Below, piece after piece: positions 6,001-43,822 of a stretch of DNA of 64,000 nt (within the stretch, counting starts at the first letter, position 1; each line of letters starts with the position of its first letter). The notes below the pieces were generated by a model. The model was not told the origin of the DNA. It saw only the letters and a list, made by a program, of their open reading frames with translations, and searched no databases. Both the position numbers and the translations under genes were made by a program. The stretch is from Candidatus Limnocylindrales bacterium (lineage in GTDB: Bacteria > Desulfobacterota > Binatia > UBA1149 > CAITLU01): the NCBI GenBank assembly GCA_035571835.1, contig DATNBU010000008.1, positions 62,001 through 126,000 on the forward strand, in the 5' to 3' direction.

Positions 6001-7268
6001 AACATGCCGGCCGGGTCGCCTTGCGAATCGTTGGCGCGCGCGACGGTGTCGGTCATCTCGACGTGATTGACGAGGTTATCGCCATCGACGACGCCGGTGT
6101 TCGCGACAGTGAGCGACACCGTGATGACGCCGTGCGCGCCGGGCGCGAGGTTCCCGATCGACCAGACATTGTTGCTCGTCGTCGGTGCGGGCGCCGCCGA
6201 CACGTAGATCATGCGCGGATCGTACGTCTCCCGGATCTCGACGCCGGTGTACGTGGTCGTCGTGCTCGTGTTGGCGTACTCGATCGTGCACGTGATCGCG
6301 GAGCCGGGAGTCGCCGGCGCCGGCTGGCAGTGCTTGTTGAGCTTGACGGTCGCCAGCTGGTCCTGGGTCGTGATGTTGACGCTGTTGAGCCCGATGTCGG
6401 CATTGTAGTGGTAGCTCGACCCGGAGAAGTCGTAGATCGTCTCGATCAGGGACGACGAGCCGGCCGACATGAAGCGGACGCTGTAGGTCGTGACGACCTC
6501 GTTGCCCTGTTTCCCGGTCGAGAGGCACGAGCGGTAGGTGCCGGTCGGAGGCGTCGGGCCGATGACCGGATCCCACGTGCAGGCATCCGAATAGACCCGG
6601 TCGTTGGTGCCGCCGGTCGAATAGGTCGCGGACACCGACATCACGCGGAACAGAAGGTTCGGGAAATCGAGGAACGACGAGAGCTGCTCGTATCCCTGCG
6701 TCGCGGTGTTCGAGTGAACCACGTAGTTGACGGTCTGGCCCACGTACACGCTGCTCGGGCCGTCCACGCTGATCACGTCGTTGCGGTTCTGCGAGATCAG
6801 GTGCTCGACGTAGAGCTCGCGATTGAGCGGGGTGCTGACGCTCGCCGTGTTGCTGGCGCTGGCAGTGATGTGGAATTTGCGGGTCGTGTTGTACGCGAGC
6901 GGGGTGCGCGTCACGCGGATCAGGAAGTAGTAGTCGTTGCAGTCGCCGGCCAGCAGCAATGGGTCGGTCTCGACGCTGGTGCCGCGCGGCGAGATGTTGA
7001 TGTACTGGTTCGCCGTGTCGAACGTGTAATTGACAGAGATGTCGTTTGCCGCGCTCGTGCCCGTGTTGCAGACACGGGCACCGGACAGGAATTCGTACGG
7101 CCCCTGATTCAGCGGGTTGTTGCTGTCGAGGCCGACGATGTTCCACGTCAGCATGTTGATCGTCAGTTGCGGTGCGGCACTTGCGACACCCGGCGTGACA
7201 AAAGTCACGGCAGCAAAGACGAACGCAGCGATCCTGGCGGCAGTGCCACCGAACGACACGAATTTCAT
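1..7268 (-). CDS. Giant secreted DUF11 / SdrD_B-repeat surface protein (C-terminus beyond window)
   Basis: At least 2,422 residues, reading off the left edge without a stop. The ATG at 7268 is preceded by AAGGGGAC at good spacing. Residues 1-31 are a Sec signal peptide ending ASA|AP. A non-repetitive N-terminal part is followed by about ten DUF11 (Ig-like) modules, each opening with a D-x-x-x-x-K-T-D/G strand and closing with a DPxxANN-type linker (about 6.4-2.4 kb). Six SdrD_B/Cna-B-like modules with IGDxxxxDxDxDG starts follow near 2260, 1880, 1520, 1170, 840 and 500, then another DUF11 module at the edge. Such stacks form long stalks on cell-surface or secreted proteins, and the D-rich starts probably bind calcium. 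The anchor (sorting signal, PEP-CTERM or T9SS-like domain) lies outside the window. The strong codon bias makes misleading long open frames on both strands. Confidence 0.93.
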   Translation of the reverse strand, partial: MKFVSFGGTAARIAAFVFAAVTFVTPGVASAAPQLTINMLTWNIVGLDSNNPLNQGPYEFLSGARVCNTGTSAANDISVNYTFDTANQYINISPRGTSVETDPLLLAGDCNDYYFLIRVTRTPLAYNTTRKFHITASASNTASVSTPLNRELYVEHLISQNRNDVISVDGPSSVYVGQTVNYVVHSNTATQGYEQLSSFLDFPNLLFRVMSVSATYSTGGTNDRVYSDACTWDPVIGPTPPTGTYRSCLSTGKQGNEVVTTYSVRFMSAGSSSLIETIYDFSGSSYHYNADIGLNSVNITTQDQLATVKLNKHCQPAPATPGSAITCTIEYANTSTTTTYTGVEIRETYDPRMIYVSAAPAPTTSNNVWSIGNLAPGAHGVITVSLTVANTGVVDGDNLVNHVEMTDTVARANDSQGDPAGMFAVAEDTLPIAVQVANTALLRVTKTGAPDPDVASGGTIVYTINYQNLGPATSYNTVLTDTLPSGLTFFSSSPAPTTSAAPVYTWNVGNLASGASGSITMTVTTGSSLPTGTILTNYAALQGQTGAGTISSAGLFADVEESQFAIGGAQAQADISVTKTDSDPVGGVPQGGILTYTMSVQNAGPNVATNVVFTDTLGANKTFTSSSLGTACTNVSGTVTCSLGTMAVGASTTFTINVVVSPSAPTAGTRDTNTLPCNGTEDICNNVSVTADQSDPNTANNTADEPTNVVAVASVCDLSMTKTHAGGTYAPGATITYNLSLANAGPQATGSSTTSFVDKLPTGVTYVSSSFTGGGSCGVPDASNTIICSFNGNVPSGGNRTGTITVSVNANAPSANSQTTGACTGSEDLCNQIVSMGSTGCRDTNQANNTTSVAADVARPSANLGLTKTDSPDSIAQGDTLTYTLNVTNAGPAAATNVDVVDTLPSNVTYVSSTASGGCTLVGSALTCRVADLANGGSTSFTITTRVNSTASTILTPGTGAVTGACTPASADLCNSATVSSYATDPTPANNTATQPTNVTATVADLSLTKTDSGDPLLEGGVLVYTMTVSNLGTGTARNVTVVDTLGAGEYYLESTASGGCVESPAGTLTCSLADIANLGSTSFTVTVFVPTGAPTAGTTQNDPCTGSPTTDICNTAVVSSSTPDPSSANNTAVEPTNILPASADVQITKNDTGSDPAALSGTVTYNVHVANPGPQDAQDVTITDVLDSDTTYVSDTFGCVQGPAHTLTCDIGALLVGQSYDFTVTVTVNSNAPTTSTQMTGACAGSEDICNNISVSSSTSDPTPANNSAQVPTNVLPNVADLSVVKSDAGFDPVLRGGTLTYGVTVTNNGPNTATSVVVTDNLSASTTYVSNTGGCSHSAGVLTCNLGSLASGASTSFTVTTTVSASAPMNGTLSSGNCNGSEDICNSVSVTAAESDPTPANNSDSEPTDVTPNADVAVDKTGPASVVPGNNVVYTVTVTNNGPGNATSVSVADPTPSGLTFVSNSGDCTTAYPCSLGTLASGATRTITSTYSVPATYTTPTPVVNTATVSTTSNDTNLANNSDGHSAPVAPQADLRMSKDDGTATYAPGGNLTYTITASNFGPSNVTGATVTDTFPAALDSISWTCSGTGGGTCPASGTGDISTSSVNLPVGATVTFLVSVDIIAGTSVNPLINSATVSVPSGTTDPTPGNNTDDDQDAPAAAASSIGDRVWLDEDGDGVQDAGEDGIAGATVQLYDSTGTILLASTTTDTDGRYIFTGRAAGTYVVRILSTSLPAGLYANPTYDYDSGTTTPNASTTITVAAGVNEDRIDFGFNWVAPATTSNPALNATGTIGDRIWNDADSDGVQDFGEAGIAGVQVRLLVDTNGDGTFGGAGDAAAVTTTTDASGHYIFDGIAPGAYVINVNTATLPAGFTTTPTGDPDGDFNNTTNPILVAPGDVFVNADFGYPLPTGHTIGDTIYVDADADGVRDGGEVGMPGVTVSLLDNGGQIVASTITDANGNFLFPGLANGTYSVVVTDVFNVLANTPTNTGDPDGGFDRISTVVLAGADNLVQDFGFAPGGHEPGDGLIGDTIYLDRDNDAVFDAGEGLEGVTVNLYAANGTTLVATVYTDINGRYLFGGLDATKTYVVRVDTTTLPGGGAGMTNTVDPDGGIASQSIVDLTLFAGATTFTQDFGYRPNTPNTISGTVFNDANGNGTKGAGETTGYAGVTVILRDANGNIVATTTTDASGNYSFAGIPNGTYTVDVSETANVLGGKTKSEGPNPGADNNSQVRGYSVTVTGGQTNTTADFGYYTPVSVVGDFVFNDTDNDGIQDAGEVGIANAVVTLTITYPNGNVVTESTVTSGTGAYSFTNLRLDESYDVTGATQPTYSITVATPANFTPSPIAQGGNVALDSNNPAGAGFTPTQGATDATVDFGFTPVTNLVVDKAGPGAVTPGNNVAYTITVSNGASPALGVVLAD

Positions 7269-7693: not shown

Positions 7694-8452
7694 TCAGAAC
7701 ACCGCGTAGCCGCCGTCGATCCGGATCGTATCGCCGGTATGGAAATCCGACGCCCTGGACGCGAGATAGACCGCAATCCCTTCGAAATCGGCCGGCGTGC
7801 CCCAGCGCCGCGCCGGCGTCCGGTGAACGACCGTTTCCCGAAGCTTGTCCCAGGACCGCGCGCCTTCGGTCATGTCGGTTTCGATCCAGCCCGGCAGGAT
7901 CGTGTTCGCCTGGATCCCGTGGCGGGCGAGCTCGACGGCCAGCGACCGGACCATCGCCGTCAGGCCGGCCTTGCTGGCCGAGTACTGGGCCTGGCGCGGC
8001 ATTCCGTGGATCGAGCCGATCGAAGCGATGCCGACGAGCTTGCCGCCGCCGCCGCGCTCGATCATGTGGCGCGACGCCTCGCGGAACGTCAGGAACGCGC
8101 CGACCAGGTTGATGTCGACGACCGCATTCCAGTCCGCGAGCGTCATCTCCGGAAAGGCCGCGGCCTTTCCGACCCCGGCGTTCGCGAAGCACGAGTCGAC
8201 CCGCCCCAGGTCGCCGACGGCGCGCTTCATCGCCTCCGCGACCTGCTCCTCGCTCGTCACGTCGACGACATACGCGCGGGCCTTGGCGCCGAGCCGCTCG
8301 AGCGCGGCCTTCGCCTCGTCGTTTTTGACGGAATTGCGGCCCCAGATCGCGATTGCCGCGCCGGCCTTCGCGAGGCCGCTGGCCATGCCGAGGCCGATTC
8401 CACCGTTTCCGCCCGTCACCAGCGCGACGTGTCCTCGAAGATCCAGGCTCAT
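7694..8452 (-). CDS. SDR-family NAD(P)-dependent oxidoreductase
   Basis: 252 residues, a classical short-chain dehydrogenase. The Rossmann motif TGGNGGIG is near residue 14, followed by the NAG motif, an active-site Ser in the IASIGSIHG strand, YSASK (Tyr/Lys catalytic pair) and a C-terminal GxTIRIDGGYAVF end typical of the family. The ATG at 8452 is preceded by AAGAGGA at normal spacing; the frame is open further upstream but nothing conserved is there. The substrate cannot be read from sequence. It stands alone and divergent from the CbiX-like gene. Confidence 0.9.
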   Translation of the reverse strand: MSLDLRGHVALVTGGNGGIGLGMASGLAKAGAAIAIWGRNSVKNDEAKAALERLGAKARAYVVDVTSEEQVAEAMKRAVGDLGRVDSCFANAGVGKAAAFPEMTLADWNAVVDINLVGAFLTFREASRHMIERGGGGKLVGIASIGSIHGMPRQAQYSASKAGLTAMVRSLAVELARHGIQANTILPGWIETDMTEGARSWDKLRETVVHRTPARRWGTPADFEGIAVYLASRASDFHTGDTIRIDGGYAVF

Positions 8453-8549
8453 GCCGGTCCTCTTAACGTGCCGATTGCGCGCAGCCAAAGACCACGCGGG
8501 CGCAGCTCGTGGTGGTTCGGGCGCGCCGCTGCTGGCAGTCTCGCGCACG

Positions 8550-8987
8550 GTGACCGCGGAGCGCGACAGCAAACCGCCGGAGACCCGGGCCGGGAACCGG
8601 TCGCGGATCGCTCTGATCGTCGTCGACCACGGCAGCCGCAACGAGGCTTCCAATGCAAGCCTCGACGCCGCGGTCCGCGAGATCGCGGCCCTCGCCGGCG
8701 ATCGCTACATTGCCGTGCTTCCCGCGCACATGGACCTCGCGAGCCCGACGATCGCCGAAGCCTTCGATCGCGCGGCGGCAGCGGGCGCTTCGCTCGTCGT
8801 CGTCGCGCTCTACTTCCTCGCGCCCGGGCGGCATTCGGAAATCGATGTTCCGAGGCTCGCTGCCGAGGCCGCCGGCCGTCACTCCGGGATCGGATTCGTC
8901 GTGACGGCGTGCCTCGGTCCGGACACGGCAATTTCAGGGCTCGTCGTGGCCCGTGCAGAGGCTGCGCTTTCGTTGCGCGAATCCTGA
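8550..8987 (+). CDS. CbiX/SirB-like sirohydrochlorin chelatase-family protein
   Basis: About 145 residues, the length of single-domain CbiX(S)-type chelatases that insert Co or Fe into sirohydrochlorin. It shows the DHGSR strand with the first metal-binding His, an HMDLASPTIAEA helix start and YFLAPGRHSEIDVP, which holds the second His. The GTG at 8550 is my choice because the conserved domain starts about 24 residues later; no clear Shine-Dalgarno sequence is visible, so the start is uncertain. No other siroheme or cobalamin gene is nearby, so the metal and pathway remain open. Confidence 0.8.
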   Translation: MTAERDSKPPETRAGNRSRIALIVVDHGSRNEASNASLDAAVREIAALAGDRYIAVLPAHMDLASPTIAEAFDRAAAAGASLVVVALYFLAPGRHSEIDVPRLAAEAAGRHSGIGFVVTACLGPDTAISGLVVARAEAALSLRES

Positions 8988-9050
8988 CGCCGCGCTTCGC
9001 TCAGCTTGCCGTTTTTGACAGAAAAGACCGTGGGTTGGCCGCCCCGCCGA

Positions 9051-9102
9051 GAAATCGGGGACAGACACCGATTTCCGAAAATCGGGGTCTGTCCCCGATT
9101 TC
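9051..9102. repeat. REP-like inverted repeat (GGGGACAGACACC family)
   Basis: Two arms, GGGGACAGACACCGATTTC and its near-complement ending GGTCTGTCCCC, are separated by a few bases and flanked by GAAATC/GATTTC. They can form a long hairpin. It lies between the CbiX-like gene and the LLM gene. Related units lie at 44888-44978. Elements of this type are usually linked to REP-associated tyrosine transposases; none is in this window. Confidence 0.8.
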
Positions 9103-9139
9103 CCGGTCCCGGCTCCCGCAATCCCGGAGGACTCCCGAC

Positions 9140-10012
9140 GTGAAATTCGCGACCGCACTGGCCTTCAACGATCCGCTCCATTTTGCCGAGATGGCCCGCA
9201 CCGCGGACGAATGCGGCTGGGACTGGTTCGCCGTCTCCGACCACCTGGTATTCCCGGAGAAGCTCGACAGCGCCTACCCGTACGCCAAGGACGGCAAGCC
9301 GTACTGGTCGACGTCGACTCCGTGGCCCGATCCGTGGACGGCGATCGCGGCGATGGCCGCCGTCACGAAGCGGCTGCGCTTCATGACCAACATCTACATC
9401 CTGCCGGTGCGCAATCCGGTGCTGATCGCGAAGCAGATCGCGACCGTCGCGTACATGTCGGGCGGACGCGTCGCGCTCGGCATCGGCACCGGATGGATGA
9501 AGGAAGAATTCGAGCTGCTCGAAGTGAATTTCCACACACGTGGAAAACGCATGGACGAGGAGATCGATATACTTCGCACATTGTGGCGGGGAGGGATGGT
9601 CGAGTATCACGGCAAGCACTACAACTTCGATCGTCTCGAGATGAGCCCCGTACCGAAAGAGCCGGTTCCGATCCTGGTCGGAGGCGTCAGCGACGCAGCG
9701 CTGCGGCGCGCGGCGCGCACCGGCGACGGCTGGATCGCGGTCCAGCACTCGACCGAAGAGCTTCGCGAGCTGCTCGGAAAGCTCGGCGCGCTGCGCAAGG
9801 AATTCGGAACCGACGCAAAACCGTTCGAGGCCGTGGTGGCGTGCACGGATGTCTTCGATGTCGACGGCTATCGCCGTATCGAGGACCTGGGCGCAACCAC
9901 CTTGACGACCGCTCCGTGGGTCCTTTACGGTGCAGATCCGAACTCGCTCGAAGAGAAGAAAGATTCGCTCAAGCGTTTTGCCGACGACGTGATCTCGAAG
10001 TTCAGGAGCTGA
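9140..10012 (+). CDS. LLM-class F420-dependent oxidoreductase
   Basis: 290 residues of the luciferase-like (beta/alpha)8 family. The N-terminus has the FAEMARTADECGWDWFAVSDH pattern, then YILPVRNPVLIAKQIATVA and GGRVALGIGTGW, the hallmark of the F420-using branch. PVPKEPVPILVGG marks the later substrate/cofactor region. The GTG at 9140 is chosen because GGAGG lies nine bases upstream. The TetR gene starts two bases after its stop, with a Shine-Dalgarno sequence inside this gene's end, so the two are probably cotranscribed. Substrate unknown; F420 rather than FMN use is inferred from the subfamily pattern. Confidence 0.9.
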   Translation: MKFATALAFNDPLHFAEMARTADECGWDWFAVSDHLVFPEKLDSAYPYAKDGKPYWSTSTPWPDPWTAIAAMAAVTKRLRFMTNIYILPVRNPVLIAKQIATVAYMSGGRVALGIGTGWMKEEFELLEVNFHTRGKRMDEEIDILRTLWRGGMVEYHGKHYNFDRLEMSPVPKEPVPILVGGVSDAALRRAARTGDGWIAVQHSTEELRELLGKLGALRKEFGTDAKPFEAVVACTDVFDVDGYRRIEDLGATTLTTAPWVLYGADPNSLEEKKDSLKRFADDVISKFRS

Positions 10013-10014
10013 GG

Positions 10015-10683
10015 GTGCCAAACAAAAAGCCGAAGCGCGTCCGGCGCACCGCCGAAGAAGCCAAGGTGATGATCCTCGACGCGGCCGAACGCCGGCTGCG
10101 CGAGCTCGGGCCGGCCGGAATCAAGCTGCAGGAGCTGGCGGCCGACGTCGGCGTTTCCCATCCGGCGATCCTGCATCACTTCGGCAGCCGCGACGGCCTC
10201 GTCGAAGCCGTGGTGCGGCGTGCGCTCGATACGCTTCGCGACTCGACGCTCGACCAGGTTCGCCAGCACATGCGTCGCGAAGTGGATATTCCGTCCATTC
10301 TCGACGCCGTCTTCGGGATCCTCGCGGAACGCGGTCACGCCCGCCTGGTCGCCTGGCTGATCCTCGAAGGAAAGAACTCGCGCGACGAGTCGCGCCTGAT
10401 GCGTGCGCTCGCCGAAGCCGCGCACGTGCGCATGATTTCCGGAGGCTGGACCGAGGGACGGCATTTCGAGTTCGAGGACATGCTGTTCACGATCATGCTC
10501 GTCGGCACGGCGGCGCTCGGCTCGGGTGTTGCCGGCGAAGCGATGCGCTTCAGCTGCGGGATCGAAGACGACACCGGCGTCGAGGAGCGTTTCCGCCGCT
10601 GGCTGAGCGCGCTGATCTCGCACTACCTGTCCGGTACGGGAACGTTCGCGCCGCCCGCGGCGAAGGCTGCGGAGCCGAAATAG
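10015..10683 (+). CDS. TetR/AcrR-family transcriptional regulator
   Basis: 222 residues. The N-terminal helix-turn-helix runs from about residue 14 to 60: ILDAAERRLRELGPAGIKL, then ELAADVGVSHPAILHHFGSR. The C-terminal ligand domain is unlike any specific regulator I know. The GTG at 10015 follows the LLM stop directly, with AGGAG inside the preceding gene. It faces the cyclase gene end to end, six bases apart. It is a plausible regulator of the LLM gene and perhaps of the 10.7-16.5 kb cluster, which is inference from position. Confidence 0.9.
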   Translation: MPNKKPKRVRRTAEEAKVMILDAAERRLRELGPAGIKLQELAADVGVSHPAILHHFGSRDGLVEAVVRRALDTLRDSTLDQVRQHMRREVDIPSILDAVFGILAERGHARLVAWLILEGKNSRDESRLMRALAEAAHVRMISGGWTEGRHFEFEDMLFTIMLVGTAALGSGVAGEAMRFSCGIEDDTGVEERFRRWLSALISHYLSGTGTFAPPAAKAAEPK

Positions 10684-10689
10684 ATCGCA

Positions 10690-11619
10690 CTACTTGACGG
10701 CGAGCGGGTTGACCGGCGAGCCGATGCCGCCGGTCACCTTGAGCGGCGGCGCCGTCAGCAGGAACTCCCAGCAGCCGTCGGCCGCGCAGTCTTCGGCGAA
10801 CGCGTCGAGCTGGAACATCTCGCCGAACGGCATGCCCATGTCGCGGATCGCGAGCAGGTGCAGCGGGTAGAGAAGCGACGGGTCTTCGCACGGCATCACT
10901 TCGACGGCCGTTGTATCCGAACAGACCGCTGCGAGGTCGTGCGCGTGAATCCATTCCGCCGCGTCGATGCCGAGGCCCGGGCCCTGCCACAGATACGTCT
11001 CGCGGTCGCCGTCCTTCGTGAACACCGAAAGATGGCCCGTGCGCAGCACGAGGATGTCGCCCGGCAGCAGCTTCGATCCCTGCTTTGCGAGCGCGTCGTC
11101 GAGCTCGGACGGACGAATCGCGCTTCCCGGGGCCAGTCGTTCGACGCCGCGGTGCCGCGCGAGGTCGACGAGCACGCCGCGCGACAGAATCCCGCCTTCG
11201 GCCAGCTTGTCGATGCCGTTCCTGGTCGCGCCCCCGACGCCGAGATGGTCGGAGACCGGATAGCCGTTGTAGAGCTTCCCGTCGTAGTGAACGTGCGCGA
11301 GGCTGTCCCACTGCGTCGAGCACTGCAGCGGAAGCGTCAGCACGTCGTCCGAGTAGCAGAAGCCGCGCGGATCCTCGCCGATCAGCGTGCCGATTGCCGT
11401 CATGTAGTGCTGCGGATTGAAGCGGCCGATCACCGTTCCGCTCTGCGGACCGTCGGCACCGAGCGAAAGGCCAAGACTGAAGATGTCGCCGCGCCGCACG
11501 CACGCCGTCGCGCGCCGCACGACCTCCGGCGTGATCAGGTTGAGCGTCCCGCGCTCATCCTCCGCCCCCCACCGCCCCCAGTTCGAAACCTTCGCCGCGA
11601 TCTCGCGTACCCGCTCCAT
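10690..11619 (-). CDS. Cyclase-family protein (kynurenine-formamidase-like metal hydrolase)
   Basis: 309 residues. The fold pattern is that of the cyclase/KynB family: RGTLNLITPE near the start, CSTQWDSLAHVHYDG in the place of the HxGTHxDxPxH metal site, LPGDILVLRTGH and the late AAEWIHAHDLAAVCSDTTAVE strand. These enzymes open or close rings by hydrolysing amides or lactones at a metal centre. The metal motif here is the divergent Q-W-D-x-x-x-H form of the larger cyclase subfamily. The ATG at 11619 has GAGG upstream; an in-frame TTG at 11640 is a weaker alternative. A REP-like element separates it from the LLM monooxygenase. Confidence 0.85.
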   Translation of the reverse strand: MERVREIAAKVSNWGRWGAEDERGTLNLITPEVVRRATACVRRGDIFSLGLSLGADGPQSGTVIGRFNPQHYMTAIGTLIGEDPRGFCYSDDVLTLPLQCSTQWDSLAHVHYDGKLYNGYPVSDHLGVGGATRNGIDKLAEGGILSRGVLVDLARHRGVERLAPGSAIRPSELDDALAKQGSKLLPGDILVLRTGHLSVFTKDGDRETYLWQGPGLGIDAAEWIHAHDLAAVCSDTTAVEVMPCEDPSLLYPLHLLAIRDMGMPFGEMFQLDAFAEDCAADGCWEFLLTAPPLKVTGGIGSPVNPLAVK

Positions 11620-11639
11620 GCGTTCTGCCTCAGGAAACA

Positions 11640-11713
11640 AAAAGGGGACAGGTACATTTAATTTTCCGCAGAGAAATCAGCCTGCGCAGAAAAAATGTAC
11701 CTGTCCCCATTTA
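11640..11713. repeat. REP-like inverted repeat (GGGGACAGGTACATTT family)
   Basis: Perfect 16-bp arms GGGGACAGGTACATTT (11644-11659) and AAATGTACCTGTCCCC (11693-11708) enclose a 33-bp loop. The element lies between the luciferase-like gene and the cyclase gene, both on the minus strand. The sequence differs from the REP family at 9051 and 44888. It could act as a transcript-stabilising or attenuating hairpin between the two genes. Confidence 0.85.
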
Positions 11714-11716
11714 AAA

Positions 11717-12955
11717 TCAGTAGTGAAATTCGGGGAGGACTTTTGTGACGAACAGCTCGAGCTGGTCGGCCTGCACCTGCCACGGCACCGTGCCCTGGTA
11801 GAAGAAGTTCCACGAGATCCATTCGAGATCGCCGTCGCCGTGGCACTTGACGAGCGCAGCCAGCTGCCGCTTTACGTCGTCGATCGTGCCGCACAGCTGG
11901 TAGCCCTTGTCGATCATCCGCTGCGTCGCCACATGCTCGTCCTTGAACTTGAGCGGGCGCATCGAAGTATCGTCCTCCGGGGAACGGAACACCTCACCGA
12001 AACCGAACAGGTTGAAGTAGTGGTGGTACTCGTAACCGGTCGTCTTCGCGGCCAGCTCGAACGCTTCCTCGCGCGTCTTGCCGATCGTGATCGCCCGCAC
12101 CGCGCCGAGACGCTGGCCGAGCTTCAGCTTGTGGCCGCCCTTTGCGGCTTCGTTCTGATAAAGATTGGCCCACTTCAGGAAGCCTTCCGGCGACGATTCG
12201 AACACCCACGGCATGATCCCGCGATGCGCGCAGTCGATCAGCGACTTTTCCGACAGCGTGAACGGCGCCCAGATCGGCGGATGCGGCTGCTGGTACGGCC
12301 TCGGCACGACGCCGATTTTGCGAATGACTCCGGCGTCGTCGATCTCGCCGCGAGCGCCGTAGTTTCGCGTCCACTCCGGCGCCGCCCAGCCGTCGATGCC
12401 TTCGTACGGGAACGGCACCTTGTAGTGATGGCCGTTGTACGAGAAGCAGTCTTCGGTCCATGCCTTTTGTACGATCTCGAGCTTCTCGTCGTAGATGTCG
12501 CGGTTGGCCGAATCGCCCTTGTCGCCCTGGCCGGTCGCCGATTCGGCGCCCTGGCCGAGCACCTTCATCCATTTCTTCTGGTAGCCGCGCGCGAACGCGA
12601 CGGCGACGCGGCCTTTGGTGAGCTGGTCGAGAATCGCGATGTCTTCGGCGACGCGAATCGGGTCGGCGGTCGGAAGCACGATCGACATCGGCGCGAACGT
12701 GATGCGCTTGGTGCGCGCCGCAAAGTCCGCATAGAGCAGCACCGGGTTGACCGAGACCTCGCCGCCTTCGGTATGAAAGTGGTGCTCGGTCGTCGAGAAC
12801 GCATCGACGCCGAGCTCATCGGCGAGAATGACGAGCTGCCTCAGCTCGTCGAGCATCATCTGGTAGCGCTCGGTGCTGCGACCGATCGGACGAAGCTGCG
12901 CCCGTTCTTCGTTCGTGGAGGGGATGGTGGGCATCGCGAAGAGGTCGAGCTTCAA
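11717..12955 (-). CDS. Luciferase-like flavin-dependent monooxygenase (LLM class)
   Basis: 412 residues, longer than the F420 branch. It carries the luciferase signature DAFSTTEHHFHTEG and ARTKRITFAPMSIVLPTADP, then AILDQLTKGRVAVAFARGY. This points to a bacterial-luciferase/FMN-type monooxygenase. The start is TTG at 12955: AAAGGAGA lies six bases upstream and the protein aligns from MKLDLFAMP. The KstR-like site at 13050-13063 is about 95 bases upstream. Likely role: oxygenation of a hydrophobic substrate in the catabolic cluster; the substrate is not visible. Confidence 0.9.
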   Translation of the reverse strand: MKLDLFAMPTIPSTNEERAQLRPIGRSTERYQMMLDELRQLVILADELGVDAFSTTEHHFHTEGGEVSVNPVLLYADFAARTKRITFAPMSIVLPTADPIRVAEDIAILDQLTKGRVAVAFARGYQKKWMKVLGQGAESATGQGDKGDSANRDIYDEKLEIVQKAWTEDCFSYNGHHYKVPFPYEGIDGWAAPEWTRNYGARGEIDDAGVIRKIGVVPRPYQQPHPPIWAPFTLSEKSLIDCAHRGIMPWVFESSPEGFLKWANLYQNEAAKGGHKLKLGQRLGAVRAITIGKTREEAFELAAKTTGYEYHHYFNLFGFGEVFRSPEDDTSMRPLKFKDEHVATQRMIDKGYQLCGTIDDVKRQLAALVKCHGDGDLEWISWNFFYQGTVPWQVQADQLELFVTKVLPEFHY

Positions 12956-13049
12956 GTTGGTCTCCTTTCTGCGGGCGGCGCGGCCAGGCCAGTGGCTGCG
13001 GGCCGCTCCGGCGCAAATCCGGCGCCGGCAAGCGACTTTCGTAGCGGAC

Positions 13050-13063
13050 TGAAACGTGTTCTA
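13050..13063. promoter_or_regulatory. Candidate TetR/KstR-type operator TGAAACGTGTTCTA
   Basis: Full match to TnnAACnnGTTnnA, the consensus published for the actinobacterial steroid regulator KstR. It lies 95-108 bases before the TTG start of the luciferase-like gene and after the stop of the glyoxalase-like gene. Similar sites occur at 16625 and 43939. The binding protein is not identified. Confidence 0.55.
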
Positions 13064-13110
13064 CAAGCCCGCCGCGGGCAATTCCAGCGGCGCCGGCATC
13101 GGCGCGGGGA

Positions 13111-13590
13111 TCAGGCGCCGGAGTACGGCTTGCCGAACGGCGCGTACGGGTCGCCCGGAATCTCCACGAGCTCGATCATCGTTCCGTCGGGATCGGTCAG
13201 GAAGACCAGCCGCGAGTTGTATTCGGGATAATCGGTGCGCGTATCGTCGAGCACGGTGACGCGGGCTTCGCGCATCTTCGCGAGGGTCGCATCGAGGTTG
13301 TCCACGCGCAGCATGATCGCGGCCATGCCGGGAACGTTCAACGCCCTGGGCCGCCACGCGCCCTCGCGTTTCGGCGAGCGGAACTCGAACAGCGCCAGGC
13401 GCACGCCGTCACGCTCGAGGAACACCGTGGTCTGGTCGACGCCCGAAAGGCCGAGCAGGCGGTCGGCATCCGCTCCGCGAACCTCGACTTCGGTGAGCGC
13501 GCGAAAGCCGAGAAGGTCACGGTAGAACGGAACGGATTTCGCAAGACTCGACACGCAGATGCCGAGGTGGCCGAAGCGGATGACGGACAT
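13111..13590 (-). CDS. VOC-family (glyoxalase/bleomycin-resistance fold) protein
   Basis: 159 residues with the two beta-alpha-beta-beta-beta halves of the VOC fold: FGHLGICVSSLAKSVPFYRDLLGF at the N-terminus and RLVFLTDPDGTMIELVE at the C-terminus, which ends in the metal-ligand Glu. The first-half His is in FGHLG. Candidate roles are lyase, isomerase or dioxygenase chemistry on a cluster intermediate. At this length it is not a two-module extradiol dioxygenase. The ATG at 13590 follows AAGGG; its start is 10 bases from the stop of the alpha/beta hydrolase gene, so they are one transcript. Confidence 0.88.
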   Translation of the reverse strand: MSVIRFGHLGICVSSLAKSVPFYRDLLGFRALTEVEVRGADADRLLGLSGVDQTTVFLERDGVRLALFEFRSPKREGAWRPRALNVPGMAAIMLRVDNLDATLAKMREARVTVLDDTRTDYPEYNSRLVFLTDPDGTMIELVEIPGDPYAPFGKPYSGA

Positions 13591-13600
13591 CGCCGGCCCT

Positions 13601-14872
13601 TTACGCCGCCGCGAAGCGTTCGCGCAGCCACGACGTGACGATCTTCATCGCGCCGTCACGCCCCGGAGCGTTCGGATTGCACTTCGGCGGAAGGCCGAGG
13701 TGATCGCCGTCGACGTAGTGAATCTGCTTGTCGGAGGCTCCCGACGCCTGATGGATCGCCTCGAGGTCCGGGATCCAGACGACGTTGTCGCCGGTATAGC
13801 TGATGACCAGCGTCGGCTGCCGGATCTTCGGGATGCATTCGAGCGTGGAGGCGCGCGAGCTCAGCCCAGACCACGTCGAAAGCCACGCGCGCGGCGTATG
13901 CAGCTTTCCGAACCCGGCCTCGATCGAATTGAAGATGTCGGGCCGCGGAGAAAAGAACGATCCGTAATCGCGTTTCGACGGATAGATCGAAAGGTCGCAG
14001 TACGCCGGGTTGGCCTCGGTGCGATGGATCTCCATGTAGCGGCCGAGAAACGCCCGCCGCCAGACGAACTGCTTCTGCTTGAACGTCAGGTCTTCGAACG
14101 CCTCGTCCGCCATCTCCCGCTGGTGATGGCGCTGCACGACGATGCAGTTCCTGGCGATGGCATCGAGCCGGGCGACCCGTCCGCGCTGCGCCGCGCGATA
14201 CATCTGCAGGAACTCGGCGCTGTAGCTGCTCGATGCAGGAGGCTCGGCAAAGCCGTTCTCCGGATTGAACATGTCGAGCGACGGATCGATCGACAGCGCG
14301 TCGTCTTCGCGCACGACCGACGGATCGATGCAGCCGAGCATCAGCACGCCCTGGCCGAGATGCGTCGCGAGCTGAACGATCCCGTCCGCCTCCGGCATCT
14401 CGAATGCGTTGAGGTCGTACGGATCGCCGGCCGCGGTGGTCGTCAGTCGCCCCGGCGGCTTCGTCGTGGCCTGCGACTGGTAGAACGTGTAGAGCGCGCC
14501 GCCTCCGCTGTTGCCGAGCAGCACGACGTTCTCGAAGCGCTTCCTCAGCTCCTTCATCGACGCGGCCACGTCGACGATCAGCATTTCGTGGATGAGGCCG
14601 ACGTCGTTGTTGAGCCAGCGCCCGGCCTGGCCGAACGCCGCGTAACCGGCCTCGAGCAGTGCCGGAATCGCGTAGTGGCGGCTCATGTCGCCGCGCGGAT
14701 GCATCATGCAGACGACAGTGCGCTCGCCGCCGCGCGTGTAGAGCACGCCGTGTGACTCGCCGCGGTCTTCGGCGACGAGCGGCATGTTCTCGGTGCGGAC
14801 TCCGGCCGGAAGCGTATCGAACGACCACAGGCTGGGGCCGAGCTGCGGATAGCGAAGAAGCTGGATTGCCAT
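13601..14872 (-). CDS. Alpha/beta-hydrolase-fold protein of the catabolic cluster
   Basis: 423 residues. The nucleophile elbow is GNSGG (LLGNSGGGALYTFY), the acid is probably the Asp of YTGDNVVW and the His that of YVDGDHLG near the C-terminus, so the triad is intact. A long insertion with FKQKQFVWRRAFLGRYMEIHR forms a cap. It could hydrolyse a ring-cleavage product, thioester or ester. It begins 14 bases after the stop of the dioxygenase-like gene and ends 10 bases before the VOC gene, in one operon. No close named relative was recognised. Confidence 0.85.
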   Translation of the reverse strand: MAIQLLRYPQLGPSLWSFDTLPAGVRTENMPLVAEDRGESHGVLYTRGGERTVVCMMHPRGDMSRHYAIPALLEAGYAAFGQAGRWLNNDVGLIHEMLIVDVAASMKELRKRFENVVLLGNSGGGALYTFYQSQATTKPPGRLTTTAAGDPYDLNAFEMPEADGIVQLATHLGQGVLMLGCIDPSVVREDDALSIDPSLDMFNPENGFAEPPASSSYSAEFLQMYRAAQRGRVARLDAIARNCIVVQRHHQREMADEAFEDLTFKQKQFVWRRAFLGRYMEIHRTEANPAYCDLSIYPSKRDYGSFFSPRPDIFNSIEAGFGKLHTPRAWLSTWSGLSSRASTLECIPKIRQPTLVISYTGDNVVWIPDLEAIHQASGASDKQIHYVDGDHLGLPPKCNPNAPGRDGAMKIVTSWLRERFAAA

Positions 14873-14883
14873 CGGTTATCCGC

Positions 14884-15007
14884 CCATCAGGCCGGGCTAT
14901 TGTCCGGCCGGTCCGGCATCAGGCCGGACTCGTCCGGCCGGTCCGGCATCAGGCCGGACTCGTCCGGCCGGTTCGGCATCAGGCCGGACTCGTCCGGCCG
15001 GTTCGGA
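14884..15007. repeat. 30-bp tandem repeat inside the 3' end of the dioxygenase-like gene
   Basis: Three nearly identical 30-bp units (14911-14940, 14941-14970, 14971-15000) plus a degenerate fourth at 14884-14910. Because 30 is a multiple of three, the array is read in frame as a ten-residue repeat, DESGLMPDRP. The stop codon lies in the degenerate unit, where a small length change moves the frame. Confidence 0.92.
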
Positions 15008-16125
15008 TTGATCAGCTGAACCGCGCTGCGCGCCGTGGCGCGGGCCTCGGCAGTGATGGTGAGGGGACGAAGCGCGTCGATGTTGACCGCCTCGAGGTCG
15101 TAATACGAGATCGCGTCCCAGTGCTGCTCGGCCATCGCGCGCGCATCCTCGCCGGGACCGTGGACTGCGCCGCGGGGATGCACCATGAACGTCGCCTTGT
15201 GCATCGGCGCGCCCATCATCGTGCCTCCGTGCAGGAACCCGATCTCGTCGTAGTCCATGTTGCGGTGGTAGTACGGGAGCCGCGCAGTGCCGCGCTCCAT
15301 CTCGGCCGGCCGCGGCACGAAGTTGCAGATGATCCAGCCCGGACCCTGGAACAGCGCGAACGCCGTCGGCGGGACGTGGTTGCGGTCGCTGACGACAGCC
15401 CGGAAGTCGAGATTGTGGAAACGGAACGGAAACAGGTCGCCTTTCCAGCCGACCACGTCGAGCGGATGCGTCGCATAGAAAAACGACGTGAACGATCCGG
15501 CGCGCTTGACGCGCACCTCGTACTCCGGGCGTCCGTCGTTCTCGTATGCCGCGGGCTCCGGAATCATCAGAAGGGTAGGGTCGTACGGGTTGTGCCGACC
15601 GAGCAGCGTGTGCTCGGCGAGCGAGATCTCGCCGGTGCTCTCGATGTGCAGGAAGTAGTTGTCGCGGGTCGACGGAACCACGCGGAACGTGACGCCTTTC
15701 GGCAGCACCACGTAGTCGCCGGCCTTGAAGTCGAGCGGGCCGAACTCGGTCTCGATGACGCCGGCGCCGCGATGCGTGAACCAGATCTCGTCGGCGTCGG
15801 CGTTGCGGTACCAGTACGGCATCGGCTCGCTGCGCCGGCTGACCGAGATGACGAGATCGTCGTTGTAGAAGCAGCGGGTCGGAAGCCCGCGCACGTTCGT
15901 CTCGTCCGACGCACCGATCTGCTGGCCGTCGAGATCGAGCGGCGCGAAGTCGCCTTCGACGCGCAGCCATCCGGTCGGCTCGTTGCGACGGTACATCTCG
16001 GCAACGCGTCCCTGGAAGCCGCCGCGGCCGATCTCTTCTTCCTTGAGCCCGCCCGGGACGCTGACATGCGCCTGCCGGGAAACCTGGCCTTTGCTCAGAT
16101 GGAACCAGGAGTTCATCGACTTCAT
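14887..16125 (-). CDS. Homogentisate 1,2-dioxygenase-family protein with repetitive tail
   Basis: 412 residues. The cupin-type dioxygenase pattern includes MPYWYRNADADEIWFTHRG early and PYYHRNMDYDEIGFLHGG late. The His and Glu of the latter and the His of AVHGPG correspond to the Fe(II) ligands of homogentisate dioxygenase. Family members cleave hydroquinone-type aromatic rings. The true substrate may be another hydroquinone, because no fumarylacetoacetase gene is present. The last roughly 43 residues are a DESGLMPDRP repeat coded by a minisatellite and absent from the normal fold. The ATG at 16125 overlaps the stop of the SnoaL-like gene by four bases, so translation is coupled. Confidence 0.85.
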   Translation of the reverse strand: MKSMNSWFHLSKGQVSRQAHVSVPGGLKEEEIGRGGFQGRVAEMYRRNEPTGWLRVEGDFAPLDLDGQQIGASDETNVRGLPTRCFYNDDLVISVSRRSEPMPYWYRNADADEIWFTHRGAGVIETEFGPLDFKAGDYVVLPKGVTFRVVPSTRDNYFLHIESTGEISLAEHTLLGRHNPYDPTLLMIPEPAAYENDGRPEYEVRVKRAGSFTSFFYATHPLDVVGWKGDLFPFRFHNLDFRAVVSDRNHVPPTAFALFQGPGWIICNFVPRPAEMERGTARLPYYHRNMDYDEIGFLHGGTMMGAPMHKATFMVHPRGAVHGPGEDARAMAEQHWDAISYYDLEAVNIDALRPLTITAEARATARSAVQLINPNRPDESGLMPNRPDESGLMPDRPDESGLMPDRPDNSPA

Positions 16126-16526
16126 GCGAACAGGGTCCTCTGGGCGTAAAGCGTGTCCACGTATTCCTTGACGCCGGCGATCTTGCCGCCGGCGATCTCG
16201 AACAGGAAATGGTAGTAGTTCGAGTACTCGGCGCCTTTGGCGGTAGTCGCGGTGATGTGGATCTCTGCGGCAACCTTGCTGTCGTCGGCAACCATGCCGA
16301 GGATCTCGATCTTCATCGGCTCGGGCGCGTACAGCGAGACGCCCTTGGCGAACATGCCGAGCACCGCTTCCTTGCCCCGGTACGTGCCGGCCATCGGCGA
16401 CGACGGCGGAACCCACCACACCACGTCGTCGGCAAACGCGGCCACGACCTTGTCGGACGCGCCGCTCCGTACGGCATCGAAGTAGTCGCGAATGAGTTTC
16501 TTGTTGGCTTCGGGCGAGGCTCCCAT
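16122..16526 (-). CDS. SnoaL-like / NTF2-fold protein
   Basis: 134 residues, typical of the ketosteroid-isomerase-related NTF2 fold: LIRDYFDAVRSGASDKVVAAFADDVVWWVPP, then YRGKEAVLGMF and a final YVDTLYAQR. Family members are isomerases, cyclases, hydrolases or binding proteins; the active residues are not conserved enough to choose. The ATG at 16526 has AAGGAGA about 12 bases upstream, slightly long. It is the first gene of the minus-strand operon and overlaps the dioxygenase-like gene by ATGA. The KstR-like site at 16625-16638 is in its promoter region. Confidence 0.87.
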   Translation of the reverse strand: MGASPEANKKLIRDYFDAVRSGASDKVVAAFADDVVWWVPPSSPMAGTYRGKEAVLGMFAKGVSLYAPEPMKIEILGMVADDSKVAAEIHITATTAKGAEYSNYYHFLFEIAGGKIAGVKEYVDTLYAQRTLFA

Positions 16527-16692: not shown

Positions 16693-17358
16693 ATGTCGGA
16701 CATGCCGAAGGCCTTTCACCTGACGCCCGAAATCCAGCGTTACGTGGTCGAGCACAGCGCCCCGATCGACGCCGTGCAGCAGGCCCTCATCGCCGAGACG
16801 GAGCAGCTCGGCTTCATCTCCATCATGCAGATCTCGCCCGAGCAGGGAGCGTTCATGGAGCAGCTGGCGCGCCTGCTTGGCGCGAAGCGCATCATCGAGG
16901 TCGGCACGTTCACCGGTTATTCGGCGCTGTGCTTTGCGCGCGCGCTGCCGAAGGACGGCAAGCTGCTGTGCTGCGACATCAGCGAGGAATGGACGTCGAT
17001 CGGACGGCGCCACTGGGAGAAGGCGGGAGTCGCCGACCGCATCGACCTGCGCATTGCACCGGCGGTCGAGACGCTCTCGGCCCTGCCCGCCGATCCGGTC
17101 TGGGACATGGCATTCATCGACGCCGACAAGGGCGGGTACCTTGCGTACTACGAGGAGATCCTCAAGAGGCTTCGTCCGAACGGCGTGATCCTCGTCGACA
17201 ACGTGCTGTGGATGGGGACCGTGGCCGATCCGGCGGCAACGGGCGAGGACGTGGTGTCGATCCGCAAGTTCAACGATTTCGTCGCGAACGACCCGCGCGT
17301 CGAAGCCGTCATGCTGACGATCGGCGACGGGCTCTCCCTGCTGCGCAAGAAGGGCTGA
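16693..17358 (+). CDS. Class I SAM-dependent O-methyltransferase (caffeoyl-CoA OMT-like)
   Basis: 221 residues. The SAM motif I is IIEVGTFTGYSALCFA, preceded by the ISPEQGAFMEQLARL helix. WDMAFIDADKGGYLAYYE contains the metal/substrate-binding Asp residues and VILVDNVLWMGTV completes the cation-dependent OMT pattern. Expected reaction: methyl transfer to a catechol-type hydroxyl. It starts at ATG 16693, in divergent orientation to the catabolic operon, and is followed by DUF899 and GNAT genes on the same strand. Methylation of catechol or hydroquinone intermediates is a reasonable but untested link. Confidence 0.92.
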   Translation: MSDMPKAFHLTPEIQRYVVEHSAPIDAVQQALIAETEQLGFISIMQISPEQGAFMEQLARLLGAKRIIEVGTFTGYSALCFARALPKDGKLLCCDISEEWTSIGRRHWEKAGVADRIDLRIAPAVETLSALPADPVWDMAFIDADKGGYLAYYEEILKRLRPNGVILVDNVLWMGTVADPAATGEDVVSIRKFNDFVANDPRVEAVMLTIGDGLSLLRKKG

Positions 17359-42846: not shown

Positions 42847-42853
42847 GATGCTG

Positions 42854-43822
42854 TCAGGCTGCGGCGGCCGCCCAGTCCTTCGAATAGAACTGCTTGGTCC
42901 ACTTGCGGTACTCGCCGATCGGGCCGTCCGACTCGCAGAGCGCGGGACGGATCTGGAATCCCTTGTGCTCCCAGATGCCGAAATCCTGCTGGATCGCCAG
43001 CGACTGGTCGTCCATGTAAGCCTTGAGCAGCGCGCGGGTTTCTTCCTCGGTTCGGCCGTCCTTCTTGCCGATCACGCCGAAATGGATGCGCGTCGTCGTG
43101 TCGTCGATCGGGGTGAGTCCGGCCACGATCACGGTCGTGAACATCCCGGTGTAGAGCAGCCAGTCGAATCCGAGGCCCCAGTTTTCGGCCTGGATGCTGA
43201 ACTCGTCGCTGACGCCGCCCATCGTCTGCACGTCCTTGCGGGTCCAGATCGCCCACTTGAACATGCGGTCGTGGAACTCGTGGCTGCGGTTCTTCGGTGC
43301 GTCCATCAGATGCACGAAGTTGAAGTGCGGCCAGTCGATCGCGTTCTCCATGATGTCCTGCGGATGCGTGCGGACATCCCACGAGTACTTGTCGTAGCTC
43401 GACGTCCAGTCGTCGGCGCCGAACTGCGGGATCACCGGGATCTCGAAATCGGGCGCGAGTCCCTGCTCGTGATACCAGACGAAGATGAGACCGTTGCGCT
43501 CGAGCACCGGATACGCGCCGGCCTTGGCCTTGGCCGGGATCTTGTCGGTGTACGGGATGTGCTTGCAGGTGCCGGTGCTGTCGAACTGCCAGCTGTGGAA
43601 CGGACACGCGATGTTGTTGCCTTCGACCTTGCCGCCGTAGCCGAAGTGCGCGCCGATGTGCGGGCAGAACGGTTCGAGCGCGCCGACGTTGCCGTCATGG
43701 CCCCGGAACAGCACGATGTCGCGGCCGAGATAGTGCACGGTCTTGACCTCGCCCTTGGCGAGCTCGTCCGAATAGCAGACCTCGTACCAGCTGTTGGGGA
43801 TTCCGAACGGAAATCTGGGCAT
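42854..43822 (-). CDS. Rieske [2Fe-2S] oxygenase subunit, KshA-like (3-ketosteroid 9-alpha-hydroxylase type)
   Basis: 322 residues. Rieske ligands C53/H55 (FCPHIGAHFG) and C73/H76 (ACPFHSWQF), then TGTCKHIPYTDKIPAKAKA as in KshA; mononuclear iron ligands H166 and H171 in IDWPHFNFVHL. The C-terminal IQQDFGIWEHKGF and CESDGPIGEYRKWTKQFY pattern also fits KshA. KshA with the KshB reductase adds the 9-alpha hydroxyl that opens steroid ring B; no reductase gene is adjacent here. The ATG at 43822 has the KstR-like site 117-130 bases upstream. Confidence 0.88.
   Translation of the reverse strand: MPRFPFGIPNSWYEVCYSDELAKGEVKTVHYLGRDIVLFRGHDGNVGALEPFCPHIGAHFGYGGKVEGNNIACPFHSWQFDSTGTCKHIPYTDKIPAKAKAGAYPVLERNGLIFVWYHEQGLAPDFEIPVIPQFGADDWTSSYDKYSWDVRTHPQDIMENAIDWPHFNFVHLMDAPKNRSHEFHDRMFKWAIWTRKDVQTMGGVSDEFSIQAENWGLGFDWLLYTGMFTTVIVAGLTPIDDTTTRIHFGVIGKKDGRTEEETRALLKAYMDDQSLAIQQDFGIWEHKGFQIRPALCESDGPIGEYRKWTKQFYSKDWAAAAA

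Follow-up and report, generated by a model that had tools for sequence, protein, structure and literature searches.

Gene organization of the locus

The window (the whole 64,000-nucleotide stretch of DNA analysed here) belongs to the draft genome of a little-studied, soil-type bacterium placed in Binatia and contains a set of six genes, all on the minus strand, which extends from position 16526 to 10690 (Table 1). The original prediction had described six open reading frames in one direction, the first four overlapping or 10-14 nt apart, and both statements agree with the sequence: the SnoaL-like gene overlaps that of the homogentisate-dioxygenase-family protein (HGDL) by 4 nt, the alpha/beta hydrolase gene (ABH) follows after 14 nt, and VOC after a further 10 nt. 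The next gaps are 155 nt (between VOC and the luciferase-like monooxygenase, LLM) and 97 nt (between LLM and the cyclase), and LLM and the cyclase may be units apart from the first four genes. The cyclase probably starts at 11619 and not at 11640. The predicted family labels were also borne out, five of the six by scores above Pfam cut-offs (SnoaL_2, HgmA_N, Glyoxalase, Bac_luciferase, and Cyclase) and that of ABH by conserved residues and predicted fold.

Chance open reading frames are ruled out by orthologues in other genomes, and a biosynthetic role was rejected, as no polyketide synthase occurs among the genes scanned near the cluster. Among the flanking genes, the O-methyltransferase (OMT) and TetR genes stay beside the locus in three relatives (G001, G005, and G006), LLM2 ends 2 nt before TetR, and TetR is a candidate regulator of the cluster.

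Table 1. Features of the six-gene locus and its flanks (positions in the window)
Feature	Position	Strand	Basis
SNO, SnoaL-like protein, 134 aa	16122..16526	-	SnoaL_2, 68.1 bits (cut-off 27)
HGDL, short homogentisate-dioxygenase-family protein, 412 aa	14887..16125	-	HgmA_N, 45.7 bits (cut-off 20.2)
Four 30-bp tandem repeats, HGDL 3' end	14885-15006	-	
ABH, alpha/beta hydrolase, 423 aa	13601..14872	-	GxSGG, Asp, and His conserved; predicted fold
VOC, single-domain protein, 159 aa	13111..13590	-	Glyoxalase, 64.8 bits (cut-off 20.6)
LLM, luciferase-like monooxygenase, 412 aa	11717..12955	-	Bac_luciferase, 116 bits (cut-off 27.9)
REP-like palindrome between LLM and cyclase	11644..11708	.	its 16-mer 52 times in genome
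Cyclase-family (PF04199) protein, 309 aa	10690..11619	-	Cyclase, 70.1 bits (cut-off 23.1)
OMT, divergent O-methyltransferase	16693..17358	+	Methyltransf_3, 199.9 bits (query began 96 nt upstream)
TetR regulator, convergent	10015..10683	+	TetR_N, 41 bits
LLM2, second LLM, F420 type by family	9140..10012	+	TIGR03619, 238.9 bits (cut-off 166.9)

Conservation of the gene set in relatives

G001, from the same genus, and G005, from a different one, share the order and strand of the six genes, and the set is therefore more than a chance arrangement. The five proteins aligned share 73-87% identity with their orthologues in these genomes (SNO, 87% with G001 and 82% with G005; VOC, 78% and 73%; cyclase, 87% and 79%; LLM, 84% with G005). 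The notion of a complete route was not supported, since SnoaL, VOC, LLM, and the cyclase were seen to accompany HGDL-ABH in only three genomes of one family and some members are also present where HGDL is missing: SnoaL-like genes adjoin ABH in five f7 genomes, an LLM does so in two, and the distance between ABH and a weaker cyclase match (37%, 6e-56) is 2.4 kb in G015.

Among 145 relatives, ABH is present in 80, the cyclase in 71, and HGDL in 51, and ABH was observed beside or near HGDL only in G000, G001, G005, and G007, as well as, on the opposite strand, in G011. None of the cyclase matches at E <= 1e-60 outside the family of the three genomes adjoins HGDL or ABH. The positions of HGDL, ABH, cyclase, and SnoaL matches were compared by eye.

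The putative ring-cleavage enzyme and its clade

The HGDL model is nearest to the solved homogentisate 1,2-dioxygenase (HGD) structures 3zds, 4aq2, 4aq6, and 1ey2 (Z 28.2-29.5; the next row of the structure comparison has Z 14.2), with the bicupin HGD fold, a 2-His-1-Glu iron site, and the catalytic His. H250, H287, E294, and H322 are invariant across 28 rows (alignment A1); in the wider family, the aligned iron ligands H287, E294, and H322 occur in 110 of 110 rows and H250 in 107. Against the hmgA equivalog TIGR01015 (cut-off 510.75), HGDL scores 64.9 bits, which excludes it from the long-HGD equivalog; this failure does not decide its function, since two short HGDs with a neighbouring HPPD, L143 and L074, likewise fall below the cut-off (78.3 and 65.4 bits). 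HgmA_C has no match in the window genome. The tandem repeats at the 3' end encode about the last 38 residues of HGDL; this tail is absent from the 27 relatives aligned, and a 27-base stretch of the repeat unit has no match in the rest of the genome when up to 2 mismatches are allowed.

In a tree of 50 hand-picked rows (44 from 121, plus 6 plasmid proteins), HGDL falls in an 18-row clade with 100/100 support, and the HPPD- and FAH-linked rows (FAH, fumarylacetoacetase) lie outside it. Of 57 clade rows, 51 have an ABH-family gene on the same strand no more than three called genes away, and none has HPPD or FAH at that distance; none of the 33 tyrosine-type rows has such an ABH neighbour, and eight have HPPD. 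Duplicates of other loci at the same place (twelve locus numbers) were dropped from these counts, and two plasmid duplicates were subtracted by hand, leaving 57 of 59 clade rows; the 57 rows, 42 of them from Mycobacteriaceae, still hold one pair of identical sequences. In annotated plasmid records, the two window-clade proteins identified carry the label homogentisate 1,2-dioxygenase.

HGDL with an adjoining ABH-family hydrolase recurs in Actinomycetota (Mycobacterium, Nocardia, and Pseudonocardia), Myxococcota, Binatia, and an alphaproteobacterial MAG; in a Caulobacteraceae MAG, a related pair is 1 nt apart (62% and 61% identity). This recurrence across phyla and the retained iron site favour the predicted ring cleavage followed by hydrolysis. 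The hydroxylation ascribed to LLM is less firmly backed, although its adjacency to HGDL at many Binatia loci is consistent with it.

The clade also differs in a basic residue at column 306, in the loop that we take to correspond to the Tyr346 loop of P. putida HGD. The residue is lost in 54 of 57 window-clade rows and kept in only three, versus 29/29 tyrosine-type rows, 5/5 FAH-LLM rows, and 7/7 rows of the Rhodococcus/Priestia type (this count is without the four remote rows L060-L063, so that tyrosine-type rows number 29 here and 33 in the neighbour count). The relation of R306 to the partner gene is not strict: 5 of 54 ABH-linked rows keep it, and the LLM group that has no ABH lacks it in 11 of 12 rows, although another alignment gave R in 4/6 of that group.

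The hydrolase and the accessory proteins

No Pfam family matches ABH above cut-off. S122, D362, and H391 are invariant in 30 sequences (alignment A2), and the AF2 model (mean pLDDT 94.4) has mostly esterases and lipases, including feruloyl esterases, as its nearest solved folds (Z 19.8-23.4; a fold absent from the VIA structure lists carries no weight), so that nucleophile, acid, His, and fold are those of an alpha/beta-fold Ser hydrolase. That it acts on a ring-cleavage product, like meta-cleavage C-C hydrolases of the MhpC/HsaD type, is suggested by its neighbourhood only. HGDL-linked ABHs are spread over different subfamilies of the ABH tree, in which, as in one further tree, near-identical rows were collapsed; the six changes of HGDL adjacency counted on it are an overestimate, L111 being scored 'no' only as a cut duplicate of L032.

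Alkanal monooxygenases and 3,6-diketocamphane monooxygenase are among the related proteins of known structure for LLM. The LLM score for the F420-dependent family TIGR03619, 59.7 bits, is below the cut-off (Table 1), and none of the cluster genes was recognised as a flavin reductase. VOC was rejected as an extradiol ring-cleaver, being a single 159-aa domain that, by eye, lacks a His where the third ligand usually lies. The cyclase matches 5ibz_A over nearly its full length (227 bits).

Homogentisate-pathway genes

The original observation that the cluster has no FAH or maleylacetoacetate isomerase gene was supported and extended to the genome, where neither reaches its cut-off. FAH has no match in the window genome (three of the eight genomes in that search exceed the cut-off), HPPD reaches at best 26.1 bits (cut-off 277), the isomerase (maiA) at best 94.9 bits (cut-off 171.05), and no long HGD was detected; the combination of HPPD, isomerase, and FAH that defines the tyrosine central pathway is thus not found in this genome, which is 98% complete. 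Lack of FAH alone would not rule out homogentisate as the substrate: direct hydrolysis of maleylacetoacetate is reported in some Bacillus (PMC4457819). Among the papers listed by literature searches, none was recognised as giving a substrate for such a gene set.

Proposed function and alternatives

The comparison of sequences, which provides the gene order, families, iron site, clade, hydrolase neighbours, loss of the basic residue in most of the clade, and the lack of detected FAH and HPPD, points to a catabolic set on an HGDL-ABH core, in which HGDL would cleave a hydroquinone that is not homogentisate and the product would be hydrolysed by ABH (probability about 0.5). Weighing against this reading, besides G007 (below), are the frequency of ABH in relatives that lack HGDL, the G006 locus with ABH but no HGDL, the spread of HGDL-linked ABHs over subfamilies, the loose relation of R306 to the partner gene, the preponderance of Mycobacteriaceae among the clade rows, and the lack of a recognised flavin reductase. 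The reactions and their order that we infer are as follows. LLM, drawing reduced flavin from another source, would probably produce the hydroquinone through either hydroxylation or a Baeyer-Villiger oxidation; HGDL, as an Fe(II) cupin dioxygenase, would open its para-dihydroxylated ring; and ABH, as a Ser-His-Asp hydrolase, would split the maleyl-ketone-type product directly, replacing maleylacetoacetate isomerase and FAH. SnoaL, VOC, and the cyclase might, as a guess, act on isomeric or lactone forms of the substrate or of the product.

The strongest alternative, although rather unlikely in our view, is that HGDL acts as a homogentisate 1,2-dioxygenase of the short type, with ABH hydrolysing maleylacetoacetate. 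Homogentisate is a serious rival substrate because G007 carries, on a contig other than that of HGDL, an aminotransferase gene, an FAA-hydrolase-family gene, and HPPD (410 bits, cut-off 277), and its only HGD-like gene found (genome 87% complete, contig ending at 7183 bp) is the window-clade HGDL of an HGDL-ABH pair, which may serve homogentisate there. Short HGDs with 34-44% identity to HGDL adjoin HPPD, several of them also FAH, and deletion of hmgA, whose product may be of the short type there, led to pyomelanin in a Bacillus cereus-group species (PMC4457819). In the window genome, where HPPD was not detected, homogentisate would derive from another hydroxylated phenylacetate, and a P450 route to it from 2-hydroxyphenylacetate is reported (PMC8449657). 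Against this alternative stand the separate, fully supported HGDL clade, the missing basic residue, the lack of detected HPPD and FAH in the window genome, and G017, which has HPPD without an HGDL match, so that the two genes are not tied.

It is improbable that the locus is a loose neighbourhood, with ABH as the resident gene and the others inserted around it without a common pathway. The locus of G006, where OMT, ABH, TetR, and LLM2 are kept and the other five genes are absent, ABH standing alone between OMT and TetR, would suit such a history, as would the cyclase and SnoaL relatives scattered elsewhere and the gaps of 155 and 97 nt ahead of LLM and the cyclase; however, the order is identical in G000, G001, and G005, VOC and LLM are 9 nt apart in G005, and in the ABH tree the HGDL-ABH locus L115 diverges outside G006, a position that makes gene loss in G006 the favoured history. 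It is likewise improbable that LLM is a type II Baeyer-Villiger monooxygenase converting an aryl ketone to an ester, from which ABH as an esterase would free the hydroquinone for HGDL as the last enzyme: 3,6-diketocamphane monooxygenase and the feruloyl and other esterases among the nearest structures agree with it, but no LLM was recognised among the listed neighbours in mycobacterial loci, Myxococcota, or the Caulobacteraceae MAG.

Returning to the hydroquinone-opening HGDL-ABH core, we tentatively suggest, as a possibility short of an even chance, that the HGD family holds a second, hydrolase-coupled branch opening an unrecognised hydroquinone, the six-gene set of Binatia being one elaboration with its own LLM. 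Alicyclic rings of a terpenoid or steroid-like kind may yield this hydroquinone on aromatisation, and the Pseudonocardia neighbours (FAD_binding_2, acyl-CoA dehydrogenase, and AMP-ligase) would fit such an origin. Should the clade use another hydroquinone, an aromatic pathway would be mis-annotated in many mycobacteria and in Binatia, and its ring-cleaving enzyme and hydrolase would offer a pair that is easily expressed and assayed; should homogentisate be its substrate, the clade would represent a form of the pathway with direct hydrolysis, for which a hydrolase gene can now be named.

Comparison with known systems

HGDL shares with hmgA-encoded HGD the fold, aligned iron ligands, and catalytic His, but it is only 20-21% identical in structural alignment, leaves the first ~89 residues of HGD unmatched, and lacks the basic loop residue, and its genome has no detected FAH or HPPD. 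The short-type HGDs of HPPD operons (Priestia L073, Variovorax L074, Ignavibacteriae L143/L149, and Acidobacteria L158/L170) resemble HGDL at the identity given above over most of its length, but belong to other clades, keep R/K306, and have no ABH within three genes. In the Binatia HGDL-LLM-FAH operons (L048 and L051), HGDL adjoins LLM as in the window, whereas R306 is kept and FAH (543.6 bits in L051, cut-off 375.3) takes the place of ABH.

The Rhodococcus plasmid sets (S2-17 L071, JS3073 L066, and R. opacus PD630 L196) also have HGDL followed by an ABH-family hydrolase with LLM nearby, but their HGDL is a distant branch keeping R306 and their ABH and LLM are of other subfamilies, and no substrate assignment for them was seen in the sources consulted; JS3073 is listed among literature references as a 4-nitroanisole degrader, and passages of PMC13101518, on R. 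opacus 1CP, do not mention homogentisate or hmgA. In the mycobacterial cluster (HGDL, ABH, CoA transferase III, HMG-CoA lyase, TetR, and acyl-CoA dehydrogenase), SnoaL, VOC, LLM, and the cyclase were not recognised among the neighbours listed, and ABH is of the c58 subfamily, about 30% identical to that of the window, whereas HGDL belongs to the window clade and, as in the window, its ABH-family partner lies directly downstream.

Organization of the six-gene cluster

All six ORFs proposed in the original prediction are present. They lie on the minus strand, beginning with SnoaL and continuing with homogentisate-dioxygenase-like protein (HGDL), alpha/beta hydrolase (ABH), VOC, luciferase-like monooxygenase (LLM) and cyclase, and the front of the cluster is as closely packed as described: the first two genes share 4 nt, and gaps of 14, 10, 155 and 97 nt follow. 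Family scans confirmed five of the six family labels; ABH matched no Pfam family over cut-off, but its predicted model (mean pLDDT 94.4) has an alpha/beta hydrolase fold, and its closest solved relatives in structure comparison are mostly esterases and lipases (Z ≤ 23.4). The window comprises positions 62001-126000 of contig C8 in a 5.46-Mb draft genome placed in Binatia and rated 98.36% complete.

The tandem-repeat tail of HGDL is absent from the aligned relatives, and a 27-base stretch of its repeat unit has no further copy in the genome. A 16-mer of the palindrome occurs in 24 + 28 genome copies, several of them as inverted pairs, and in none of the backwards-read control. A simple scan for promoters and terminators gave nothing above chance.

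Coordinates of the cluster and of other features observed in the window and in one mycobacterial locus
Sequence	Positions	Strand	Feature
Window	10690-16526	minus	Six-gene cluster
Window	14885-15006	minus	Four 30-bp tandem repeats forming the 3' end of HGDL, just ahead of ABH
Window	11644-11708		REP-like palindrome separating LLM from cyclase
Window	3-7154	minus	Very long ORF (2384 aa called); at the corresponding place in the Binatia genome G006 lies a long ORF whose start is similar
Window	41053-43822		FAD_binding_2 flavoprotein adjoining a Rieske oxygenase with KshA_C domain; the pair recalls steroid ring attack
Mycobacterium celatum locus (L121)	8095-14211		HGDL-ABH-CoA transferase III-HMG-CoA lyase-TetR-acyl-CoA dehydrogenase-APH cluster, also in many mycobacterial loci

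HGDL and its association with the hydrolase

HGDL belongs to the homogentisate-dioxygenase family but to another branch of it. Structure comparison of its model gave Z of 28.2-29.5 against homogentisate dioxygenases over approximately 300 residues (next row, 14.2), and a profile alignment places the Fe ligands and the catalytic His of the human enzyme at H287, E294, H322 and H250, respectively. All 110 family rows have the three Fe ligands, and 107 have H250. In a 50-row tree, the window protein falls in an 18-row clade (support 100/100) comprising sequences from Mycobacterium/Mycolicibacterium/Mycolicibacter, Nocardia, Pseudonocardia, Myxococcota, Binatia and a Caulobacteraceae MAG (L115), together with two plasmid proteins, from M. 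avium and, on a long branch, S. clavuligerus. Rows labelled as neighboured by HPPD or fumarylacetoacetase (FAH) lie outside it.

A larger row set was placed into clades by best match, with neighbours defined as same-strand genes no more than three called genes away. An ABH-family gene was found near HGDL in 51 of the 57 rows of the window clade, and HPPD or FAH in none; the 57 rows are not independent events, since 42 are from Mycobacteriaceae. In three further rows (L033-L035) the next called gene encodes a different alpha/beta hydrolase (subfamily c29; approximately 0.8 kb away in L033), and the remaining three have neither hydrolase on the same strand. Among HGD-family rows of tyrosine operons (tyrosine-type), ABH was found in 0/33 and HPPD in 8/33, six of these also with FAH.

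In M. celatum, the HGDL-ABH pair is followed by genes for CoA transferase III, a protein of the HMG-CoA lyase type (281.8 bits, cut-off 246), TetR and acyl-CoA dehydrogenase, and most mycobacterial loci that extend far enough continue with genes of similar sizes; no description of this mycobacterial cluster was found in the open-access literature searched. In Pseudonocardia (L172), the pair lies amid FAD_binding_2, enoyl-CoA hydratase, acyl-CoA dehydrogenase and AMP-ligase genes.

Candidate substrates

The best-supported reading is a putative two-step process in which HGDL would open a hydroquinone ring and ABH would hydrolyse the ring-opening product directly, with LLM as a possible supplier of the hydroquinone. 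The predicted lack of fumarylacetoacetase and maleylacetoacetate isomerase (maiA) in the cluster extends to the whole genome, where neither was detected over cut-off: fumarylacetoacetase gave no match in a search that evidently works, as three genomes in it pass the cut-off, and the best maiA score was 94.9 (cut-off 171.05). The best HPPD score was 26.1 bits (cut-off 277), and HPPD was also below cut-off in the relatives G001 and G005. The window genome has no HgmA_C domain and no second HGD-like gene (E ≤ 1e-5).

The main rival is that HGDL acts on homogentisate itself, with direct hydrolysis of maleylacetoacetate, a reaction reported for some Bacillus in work cited by PMC4457819. It is supported by G007, a genome of the same order as the window genome, which has HPPD (410 bits, cut-off 277) and a window-clade HGDL-ABH pair. 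Its 7183-bp HPPD contig carries aminotransferase, HPPD, thioesterase and FAA-hydrolase-family genes and no HGD gene. Since G007 has no second HGD-like gene (E ≤ 1e-5), HGDL may act on homogentisate there, unless a gene is missing from the assembly (87% complete). Another genome, G017, has HPPD and no HGDL match.

The residue at alignment column 306, five residues past the Gly closing the cupin motif, may also bear on the substrate. It aligns within one residue of human K353/P. putida K349, near the Tyr346 loop. Arg or Lys occupies this column in all 29 tyrosine-type, 5 FAH-LLM and 7 Rhodococcus/Priestia-type rows, and in 14/14 rows with HPPD or FAH neighbours, and in only 3/57 window-clade rows, where column 305 is always Gly. 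The correspondence with the partner gene is not strict, as Arg is retained in 5/54 ABH-linked rows. In an LLM group without ABH the basic residue is missing in 11/12 rows, although a second alignment places Arg there in 4/6, making the loop alignment of this group unsure. Judged from sequence, the window-clade substrate may do without this charge. In the portions of the open-access literature seen, no substrate assignment for such a gene set was recognised.

Conservation of the six-gene set

Among 35 loci compared (the window and 34 others), an HGDL gene assigned to the main cluster occurs in 30. The full set, in the same order, is found in three of them, namely the window, its congener G001 and G005, which is from another genus. 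Compared with the window proteins, SnoaL, HGDL, ABH, VOC and cyclase show 87, 87, 84, 78 and 87% identity in G001 and 82, 80, 80, 73 and 79% in G005, whose LLM is 84% identical. Flanking O-methyltransferase (OMT), TetR and second LLM genes are also kept with the full set. In G005, only 9 nt separate VOC from LLM, which favours one unit there.

In G006, ABH stands alone inside matching flanks, between TetR and OMT (TetR and ABH ends overlap by 4 nt), and the genome has no match for HGDL (E ≤ 1e-5), cyclase (1e-60) or SnoaL (1e-15). On the ABH tree, the four Binatia sequences, among them that of G006, group to the exclusion of L115 (SH-aLRT 98 and 99), a MAG in which mis-binning is possible and whose HGDL and ABH are separated by 1 nt; gene loss in G006 would therefore be simpler than gain in the others.

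A complete, six-step route was not supported. Relatives of ABH, cyclase, SnoaL and HGDL occur in 80, 71, 46 and 51 of 145 genomes, respectively, mostly apart (positions compared by eye), and partial sets without HGDL exist: SnoaL-like genes directly beside ABH in five genomes of Binatia family f7 (L087, L088/L095, L090/L094, L091, L104), LLM adjoining ABH in two genomes (L089, L101), and in one (L093) cyclase lying 2.4 kb away from ABH. Such sets suggest that ABH, SnoaL and LLM may form a more widespread association.

Comparison with related systems

The subfamily of the cluster LLM was detected (E ≤ 1e-80) in 5/395 phylum genomes. LLM is a recurrent HGDL neighbour in Binatia; however, a first look gave 9 to 83 LLM candidates in each of the class genomes listed, which makes this association weaker than the one between HGDL and ABH. 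Rhodococcus plasmids share the HGDL-ABH pair with LLM nearby, but their HGDL belongs to a distant branch. Some Binatia (L048, L051; family f12) differ in having HGDL-LLM-FAH rows with fumarylacetoacetase over cut-off, possibly an LLM-fed variant of the homogentisate pathway.
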